A stretch of 64,000 nucleotides of DNA from Candidatus Bathyarchaeota archaeon (GTDB taxonomy: Archaea; Thermoproteota; Bathyarchaeia; Bathyarchaeales; Bathycorpusculaceae): positions 186,001 to 250,000 of the forward strand of contig JAOZHT010000002.1 in the NCBI GenBank assembly GCA_026014735.1, read 5' to 3'. Positions 3,590-53,836 of this stretch are shown in pieces. Positions within the stretch are counted from its first letter, which is position 1. Every line of letters starts with the position of its first letter. Under the pieces are notes generated by a model that was given only the letters and a program-made list of their open reading frames with translations, made no database searches and was not told where the DNA came from. The position numbers and the translations under genes were made by a program.

Positions 3590-3745
3590 TAAAACAACTG
3601 TTCTCTATAGTTGTTGTGGGGGACCCCTCTTTACACAACAACAACCCGTGGTTTGTGCAACACAACGCTTTTTGGCTTCAGGCGTTAATGCAGATTGCAG
3701 GTTGGTTGTGGAGCAAACCACAAGCAGAACAGACAAAATTTTGAT
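3590..3745 (+). ncRNA. Hairpin-rich intergenic element, copy A (possible small RNA)
   Basis: The region between 3540 and 3900 has no convincing gene. It contains a block closely similar to 21330-21475: an AACT/AGTT hairpin, then GTTGTTGTG (3610-3618) pairing with CACAACAAC (3634-3642) around a GGGGACCCCTCTTTA loop, then a third hairpin TTGTGG/CCACAA (3706-3711 with 3718-3723), ending with GCAGAACAGACAAAAT. Hairpin positions are kept in the second copy although the stem sequences differ, which suggests RNA structure. Strand is given as + only because the element reads in that sense in both copies; no promoter was identified. A degenerate mobile repeat is the alternative. Confidence 0.45.
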
Positions 3746-3900
3746 GTTCTGATAAGGGCGAAAGGGTAGTTTTCTGGGGTTTTACCTCTTTATGCGTAGG
3801 TAAGCGTTTGCTTGAGTTGCCTTGTTTCTTGTGTCTGTTTGGGTCCGCCAAAACGATTTTTCCGCAAGCTCGCCATAGCTCCCACCGGTTGGGCGGCTAT

Positions 3901-21114: not shown

Positions 21115-21734
21115 CGCAAATCTTACCTGACTAAGTCTATCTCTGTTCTGCTAATTTAACGTTGCAGTTGTTCTGCCTGCCCAAGGAGAGGGAAACGCCG
21201 CTGAGGGTTTTAACTGTGGAGGCGTAAGTTGCGTTATGCACAAAACCCGCCTTGCCCAGACAGAGGGTCTGTTGTGCTCTGCCAGCTCTACCCCCCCTCT
21301 ATATATAGCAGACTGAGAATCTGGCGCTAACTGTTTTTCTTTAGTTGTTGCTGTGGGGGACCCCTCTTGACACAACAACAACCCGCGGACTGTGCAAAGC
21401 AACCTAAATCAGAAAAGGGCGCTAAGGCGCATTCCAGGCAGGTTGTGCAACTTGCCACGGACAGAACAAAAAAATAGGGTCATAACGCAAAAACTTGGCT
21501 GCTCCACCTTTTCCTTCCATATAGGTAGAGAAAAACTGTTCTCTCTTTGCGAATATGGCTGTGTAATTTGGGATATTCAGAGAATTTGCCATTTAACCTT
21601 AACAACCTTCCTTGTGAGAATTTTAAAAAAGGCATGCCTCTACTATACAGCCATTTCAAATTTTGCTGGAAAGCAATTGGCTGTTTTTTGAAGCCAGCCC
21701 TTAATTAAATTCTGAGTTCTTGTCTTCAACCTTT
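21115..21734. other. 620-base intergenic region holding repeat copy B
   Basis: No gene could be supported; a 99-codon plus-strand frame here (21392-21691) has unlike-protein composition and crosses the repeat. The region includes the 5' flank of the IPK operon (21115-21200), a short C-run followed by a TATATATA stretch (21289-21308), the hairpin element described separately (21330-21475) and AT-rich sequence with a T-run after the convergent gene end (about 21610-21734). Confidence 0.5.
21330..21475 (+). ncRNA. Hairpin-rich intergenic element, copy B (possible small RNA)
   Basis: Second copy of the element at 3590-3745. GTTGTTGCTGTG (21344-21355) pairs with CACAACAACAAC (21371-21382) with one mismatch around a GGGGACCCCTCTTGA loop; compared with copy A, the stem is three bases longer on both sides. 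A third hairpin, GGCAGGTTG (21437-21445) with CAACTTGCC (21448-21456), replaces a different hairpin at the equivalent place in copy A. The tail GGACAGAACAAAA matches copy A's tail. Conserved hairpins with changed stem bases favour RNA over a plain DNA repeat. Confidence 0.45.
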
Positions 21735-31122: not shown

Positions 31123-33333
<2,211 letters not shown>

Positions 33334-52834: not shown

Positions 52835-53836
52835 CTATGGATAAAACCGTTTGAATATTCTTCCTATCCTAAGAGCCAGCCATAGCTGCTCACTGGATAC
52901 CCCCATCTTCGCTCTTGCTGCTTTGCCGTACTCAAGCTTCCACAAGCCGCTGGGCAACTGGTTATCTGCAAGCCAATCTAGGCCCCGCTGCACGTCGGCG
53001 TCGTCTACGGGGTAGCCCGTCAACGCAAGCGACTCCAGCGCCGTGACGAGGTTAGGCCACCAGAACAGGAACCGTACCCAGTAACGCTTGTCCTGATATG
53101 AGGTGTAGTAGTCGGGTTGGAAGAAGGATGTTTTGAGCAGGTCCGCGGCTGCATGCGCCTCTTTGCAGCGGCGATACGCGGGGTGGGCGGCGAAGGCGCG
53201 CAGAGCCATGTCGGTCCAGTTATGCGAGAAGGGCTTTGTGCGGTCGGGTTCTATGGGTTCGGCGTAGGTGCTTGTGAGTTTGTTTATGGTTGCCTGTGTG
53301 AGGGCATATTGGTGGGTTAAGATGGGAATTGACCATCCGCCGTCGTTTTGGCGCATGGAGAGCAACCAAGTCAGTCCCTTTTCCACTCGCGGGTCATCTG
53401 TGTATCCTGCTTTTATAAGGACCGCCAGCATTGCACCCGTATAGTAGGTGGCATACTGGTTTGCCATCATGCCGCGGATGTCGCCCTGGCTAGTTTGAAA
53501 AGAAAGCAGGAATTCAGCCGCTTTAGGCACGCTTTCATGCTGTTTGGTGAGTTGGTAATGTTCGACAAGGATGCGGAGGTTTTTCCAAGTTTCGACTAAT
53601 GCATAGTGGTTTTTTGGGTAGGTTACGGTTTCTTTGCCGGTGTGGGGCCATGAACCGTCAGGTTTCTGCTTCCGGAGGATTCGCTGGACTTCTGGCAGTT
53701 GCCAGACAAAAGTTATGGGTTGGACGGTTTCGTTGAGGAGGTCTCGGCGGGTAAAGTATTCGATGGCTCCGTTGCCGCATAAAAGCAGACTTGTGATGGG
53801 GTTGATTTTTAGGTGAGTTAACCAATTCTTGGACAC
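52835..53836 (-). CDS. Prenyltransferase/squalene cyclase-like alpha/alpha-toroid protein
   Basis: 333 residues. Repeated QW-like helices such as KQKPDGSWPHTGK, LSMRQNDGGWSIP and LADNQLPSGLWKLEY fit the terpenoid-cyclase/protein-prenyltransferase toroid. The catalytic DxDD and QW arrangement of true cyclases is not evident, so it may not be a cyclase. Archaeal proteins of this type have unclear roles. Cytosolic; no signal peptide is apparent. Confidence 0.75.
   Translation of the reverse strand: MSKNWLTHLKINPITSLLLCGNGAIEYFTRRDLLNETVQPITFVWQLPEVQRILRKQKPDGSWPHTGKETVTYPKNHYALVETWKNLRILVEHYQLTKQHESVPKAAEFLLSFQTSQGDIRGMMANQYATYYTGAMLAVLIKAGYTDDPRVEKGLTWLLSMRQNDGGWSIPILTHQYALTQATINKLTSTYAEPIEPDRTKPFSHNWTDMALRAFAAHPAYRRCKEAHAAADLLKTSFFQPDYYTSYQDKRYWVRFLFWWPNLVTALESLALTGYPVDDADVQRGLDWLADNQLPSGLWKLEYGKAARAKMGVSSEQLWLALRIGRIFKRFYP

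Follow-up and report, generated by a model that had tools for sequence, protein, structure and literature searches.

Intergenic hairpin-bearing repeats of a Bathyarchaeia genus as probable ISH3-associated MITE-like elements

Two related intergenic segments

Two intergenic regions of one archaeal contig resemble each other over about 150 bases, and the question is what kind of element they represent. They lie in the window, i.e., the whole analyzed stretch of 64,000 nucleotides on contig C2 of a 2.9-Mb archaeal genome (G000). An earlier note described them as a pair of hairpin-rich elements, possibly a small RNA family and not a plain repeat. The resemblance is real: copies A and B, both on the + strand, align without gaps over 135 bases with 92 identical positions, and the BLAST E-value of 4e-15 in a search of their own genome is far beyond chance. 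Of the individual parts, the 5′ hairpin is identical at 38/42 positions, the middle at 25/46, and the 3′ part at 26/37. Both copies indeed lie outside genes, copy A having a phosphoesterase gene on one side and a luciferase-like gene on the other, and copy B being upstream of a gene of the amino-acid-kinase family. Covariance model R1 scores them at 140.6 bits (A) and 126.3 bits (B). The following parts are recognized.

3597–3731, + strand: copy A, 135-nt core (covariance model R1)
3610–3642, + strand: copy A, 5′ hairpin GTTGTTGTG ... CACAACAAC, inner GGGG/CCCC (compensatory changes, 145 copies)
3706–3723, + strand: copy A, 3′ hairpin TTGTGG AGCAAA CCACAA (pairing retained in about 90% of cells, mostly wobble changes)
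3737–3751, + strand: copy A, remnant of the right terminal inverted repeat AATTTTGATGTTCTG, then ATAA (13 of 15 bases, expected place)
21334–21468, + strand: copy B, 135-nt core (covariance model R1)
21344–21382, + strand: copy B, 5′ hairpin GTTGTTGCTGTG ... CACAACAACAAC (predicted fold and family covariation)
21437–21456, + strand: copy B, 3′ hairpin, alternative form GGCAGGTTGTGCAACTTGCC (sequence and predicted fold)

Judging from sequence comparison, we consider it probable, at roughly 0.6, that A and B are members of an ISH3-associated family of short, non-autonomous MITE-like elements restricted to one genus of Bathyarchaeia. The basis of this reading, i.e., the family, its copy numbers, shared ends, target duplications, and conserved core structure, is directly observed.

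Family size and distribution

The two elements do not form a pair, being only two of about 53 copies in G000: BLAST with copy A found 41 places in this genome, and the covariance model search, the first model being built from 31 own-genome copies, yielded 53 (E ≤ 0.001). A search of related genomes with a covariance model, as the earlier note had proposed, found the family in several congeners, namely, 92 copies in G018, 47 in G043, 27 in G014, 24 in G024, 14 in G013, 10 in G011, and 9 in G009, with one or two copies in each of four further genomes of the genus. The same search gave zero copies in about 20 further congeners; across 151 genomes of the class, a single weak hit fell outside the genus. 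The host genus appears to include Candidatus Bathycorpusculum, represented by B. acetigenerans (WQVG01000033.1, G004) and B. hydrogenotrophicum (WRCX01000023.1, G015). The listed matches span the whole model (1–135), and the density in the richest genomes is about one copy per 20–55 kb. Viral or plasmid origin was rejected, as no match to the element was found in phages, plasmids, and viral contigs.

Mean identity among copies is 64–70% within the two richest genomes and 56–67% between genomes; the closest own-genome relative of copy A is 91% identical. The nearest relative of a copy resides in the same genome for 49 out of 51 copies in G000 and 44 out of 52 in G018. We found no published description of this repeat family in the literature searched, and it appears to be undescribed so far in this uncultured archaeal genus; for annotators, it accounts for many intergenic stretches of the genus.

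Terminal inverted repeats and the ISH3-type insertion sequence

About 39–46 of the 145 examined copies, including copy A (right end only), have inverted repeats at a fixed distance from the core. In the aligned flanks, the imperfect terminal inverted repeat comprises CAGTAGATCAAAATT, located some 28 bases upstream of the core, and AATTTTGATCTACTG, which terminates roughly 20 bases downstream of it. An intact unit measures ~163–194 bp; the unit ends begin with CAGT (CAGTAGATC ends). The right repeat of copy A matches at 13 of 15 bases, a level reached by none of 2000 random 55-base stretches (0/2000 scored above 11), and its left repeat is not recognizable. In copy B, no terminal inverted repeat is left (scores 8 and 7 of 15).

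The 15-mer end, with at most two mismatches, occurs 75 times in G018 vs. once for the reversed control, and is rare, near the control level, in G000, G043, and G014. Two of these end sites in G018, 1.1 kb apart, bound one complete insertion sequence (L243, 2001–3113). It encodes an intact 347-aa DDE transposase (PF01609, E 1e-11) whose best NCBIfam model is ISH3 (E 4e-51), at 173.8 bits, below the curated cut-off of 225. No ISH3-type transposase is recognizable in G000 itself, and remnants of such transposases across the genus do not track the distribution of the element.

Exact 4-bp target duplications flank 11 of the 27 two-ended units, compared to 3.8 expected (p = 0.0002), with no excess at lengths 2, 3, 5, or 6, and the target DNA is A/T-rich. 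Known ISH3 elements have CRGT ends, 4–5 bp direct repeats, and a length of 1225–1500 bp (PMC2266710); the CAGT ends and 4-bp repeats of the family are those expected of mobilization by ISH3. Since the inverted-repeat ends match the insertion sequence and are accompanied by 4-bp duplications, the family likely moves, at least partly, as a MITE mobilized in trans. It is short and multi-copy, with neither a transposase gene nor a coding signal, and, at the family level, has terminal inverted repeats, ends common to an autonomous element, and a target-site duplication. Many copies with target duplications, here accompanied by insertion-sequence ends, are part of what the earlier note had named as signs of a mobile repeat, although the copies are not near-identical, as it had supposed for that case (mean 64–70% within the two richest genomes).

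Within the MITE reading, the unit would consist of the terminal inverted repeats (CAGTAGATCAAAATT...AATTTTGATCTACTG), the 135-nt hairpin-bearing core, and a 4-bp A/T-rich target duplication, and would probably be moved in trans by an ISH3-like DDE transposase. The inverted repeats would decay after insertion, leaving the right end in copy A and none in copy B, and the end-less copies would descend from copies that once had inverted repeats. The core probably persists because it is useful for transposition or as a structured transcript.

Units of G018 (L244–L250, L252–L254), ~262–277 bp long, have the same ISH3-type ends and, by eye, a core-like interior with a second related module; the covariance model produced weak hits in two of these loci, L250 and L254 (E ~0.02).

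Comparison with known repeats

REP/BIME-type palindromic repeats of bacteria are dispersed and intergenic, and feature conserved stem-loops and close pairs. The family described here has all these traits, but differs in its longer unit with two unequal hairpins, a variable middle, and ISH3-type ends; also, no RAYT-type transposase gene is linked to it.

Prokaryotic MITEs, including SM1–SM4 of Sulfolobus, have been reviewed (PMC10969869). Like them, the family is short and non-coding, with many intergenic copies at A/T-rich sites, insertion-sequence inverted-repeat ends, target duplications, and a hairpin-forming interior (PMC10969869). Unlike them, it shows stronger conservation of the interior than of the ends, which cannot be recognized in most copies; the copies are strongly diverged, and some units contain two tandem cores. 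With the ISH3 family (PMC2266710) it shares CAGT ends and 4-bp target duplications, the G018 transposase being best matched by the ISH3 model; however, the G018 element, at 1.1 kb, is a little below the 1225–1500 bp range, the model score is below the cut-off, and the repeats themselves have no transposase.

Structure of the core

The core consists of a T-rich start, the 5′ hairpin GTTGTTGTTG..CAACAACAAC with a variable loop, a freely varying middle of about 46 bases, nearly constant in length and fixed at a few spots (nTTGCnTTTTGG, G85), and a 3′ part, TTGCAGGCTGGTTGTGGnnnnnnCCACAAGCAGAACA, with a short hairpin. Three retained hairpins had been proposed for copies A and B; two are conserved in the family, the 5′ hairpin, with compensatory changes, and the short 3′ hairpin. 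The third, middle one is not supported: the middle stretch shows no pairing signal and no pairing covariation.

In alignments that were fitted to the covariance model and hence lean towards it, changes on both sides of a pair numbered 60 for the 5′ hairpin (96 copies), vs. 33 ± 6 after shuffling and no more than 28 in slid controls, and 59 for the hairpins (49 copies), vs. 34 ± 4 and no more than 27, respectively. Inspection by eye nevertheless shows that the whole 5′ stem has been replaced in L172, L164, and L140. In the 3′ hairpin, pairs are kept in ~90% of cells and the variation is mainly wobble; read on the + strand, there are 49 G.T wobbles vs. 12 A.C mismatches, which hints at folding of the + strand. 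The first pair count, in MAFFT alignment A1 of 31 own-genome copies, gave no covariation because these copies are too alike and partly misaligned; unlike A1, the wider model-based alignments contain the signal. Pairing is conserved in the family, so that the loss of pairing in other copies, which would have spoken against the earlier note, was not observed.

These data bear on the rather unlikely alternative that the core is a structured RNA (a small RNA or an RNA domain) with a cellular role, spread by MITEs and subsequently retained by selection at its landing sites. An RNA of this kind would be expected to show the compensatory changes of the 5′ hairpin, including the replaced stems, and the wobble excess of the 3′ hairpin. 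However, the wobble asymmetry is absent from the 5′ hairpin; the overall folding energy is weak, the whole element folding slightly better than shuffled sequences (mean z −0.96 on the + strand and −0.56 on the − strand, 25 copies); Rfam contains no credible match to the element; and no conserved promoter or terminator adjoins the core outside its borders.

Nor do the neighboring genes follow an orientation rule that such a role might impose. By simple ORF-based gene calls, on which all these counts rest, the G018 sites comprise 16 convergent, 16 divergent, and 17 tandem ones, which is close to random, as is the orientation in other genomes; by contrast, 34 out of 51 right-hand genes in G000 point their 3′ end at the element, a mild 3′-end bias restricted to this genome. 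Given the near-random orientation to genes, the role of a riboswitch, leader, or terminator was rejected. Thus, what holds of the suggestion that this is a small RNA family and not a plain repeat is the second half: the compensatory changes seen between species in the 5′ hairpin and the conservation of the core above its surroundings make the element more than a plain repeat, while a small-RNA family as such is not borne out.

Copies without ends and long-term retention

The majority of copies (~100 of 145) have no recognizable inverted repeat, and their cores are still conserved at ~95% over the 30 most conserved columns, with a mismatch of 3.6% vs. 4.0% in copies with repeats. In these end-less copies, conservation stops abruptly, reaching the background level only a few bases beyond the core edge. 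The 32 variable core columns are saturated, at random identity. In G000, 16–20% of copies keep their ends vs. 54% predicted under equal decay. The abundance of end-less copies with intact cores, their sharp edges, and this shortfall of ends weigh against the MITE reading. Identity to the nearest neighbor is slightly higher for copies with repeats than for those without (0.855 vs. 0.830 in G000, 0.805 vs. 0.769 in G018), as if the former were younger.

A core conserved without its ends, with other columns saturated, would be compatible with a structured RNA under selection or with an additional mode of spreading: either selection acts on the inserted core, or the core propagates by some other route. 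Since the interior of this mobile element outlasts the ends, one can test whether archaeal MITEs carry selected RNA structures or spread by a second route.

In 14 other species, the covariance model detects no element upstream of the ortholog of the copy B gene. A clean empty site that could be aligned was not found; when one was sought for the G018 copy near the 16S rRNA gene, its flank was absent from the other species. Elements beside orthologous genes of different species do not resemble each other more than random pairs do, which argues against the structured-RNA reading, and neighboring genes are shared between copies of different species about as often as in a rough chance estimate. On these grounds, long-lived orthologous copies were rejected, and long retention at one place is not demonstrated. 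Likeness does not exceed the random level even between L177 and L213, although their flanks match at 90% right up to the element. In three species, L177 (G011), L213 (G018), and L163 (G043) occupy the same place next to an orthologous gene and are oriented alike, the elements being unrelated beyond the family level and the other flank differing.

It is quite unlikely, on the sequence data, that the core represents a novel structured RNA module of this genus that mobile units carry and selection maintains after landing, with ~50–90 diversified copies per genome. If it did, a fixed two-hairpin frame with a variable middle of nearly constant length would be maintained in all those copies.

Close pairs and neighboring repeats

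Among close core pairs (spacer of at most 313 bases), nine out of 10 are head-to-tail, with cores 52–73% identical. This arrangement, together with the sharp conservation edges of copies without inverted repeats and the different upstream extension TTGGAAATGGAATTTAGGTC of some copies, could suggest that the 135-nt core is itself mobile by another mechanism (e.g., via hairpin ends and single-stranded DNA), copies with inverted repeats being cores captured in ISH3-type units. We regard this as improbable. In at least one pair, L149, both cores lie within a single inverted-repeat unit; the second core of L211 and of L212 is accompanied by a left or right repeat of its own, as though it had inserted behind the first core. 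Both arrangements fit ISH3-type movement. Bare cores have no known target duplication or target motif, and no HUH-type transposase is linked to them; an IS200/REP-type transposase was rejected, since the only Y1 hit in G000 is a split gene remote from all copies. For the head-to-tail pairs, integron attC-like sites were also discarded, as no core sites could be recognized by eye.

A decayed protein-coding segment or small gene is very improbable: one frame is protein-like (NNNQR..IAFW....IAGWLW..PQAE), but it has in-frame stops in 24 out of 42 own-genome copies, avoids stops no more than other frames, shows a synonymous share of codon changes of 0.272 vs. 0.254 ± 0.048 under the null, and is broken by one-base length changes in the hairpin loop, so that the coding reading was rejected.

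A second dispersed repeat, TTGCTCTGCC..CTACCTCCCTCCCCTTATAWA, often occurs just upstream or 20–60 bases downstream of cores; it is located at 21288–21308 of the window and in the flanks of L003, L004, L025, L124, L136, L141, L148, and L217. Its TATA-rich end may be a promoter or a preferred target of insertion. L025, L124, and L136 have in common a repeat of 240–290 bp, ~90% identical, that is bounded by it on both sides. Separately, L141, L147, L172, L176, and L189 have in common an upstream extension, TTGGAAATGGAATTTAGGTCTTTT, with no visible inverted partner.

Other genes in the window

At 31162–33333 (+ strand), the window encodes a 723-aa protein that strongly matches the PF00141 peroxidase family (catalase-peroxidase type; E 2e-72, two stretches), which is of interest as the host is a presumed anaerobic archaeon. 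The product of the gene at 52835–53836 (− strand) partly matches the squalene-hopene cyclase C-terminal domain PF13243 (E 1e-7).
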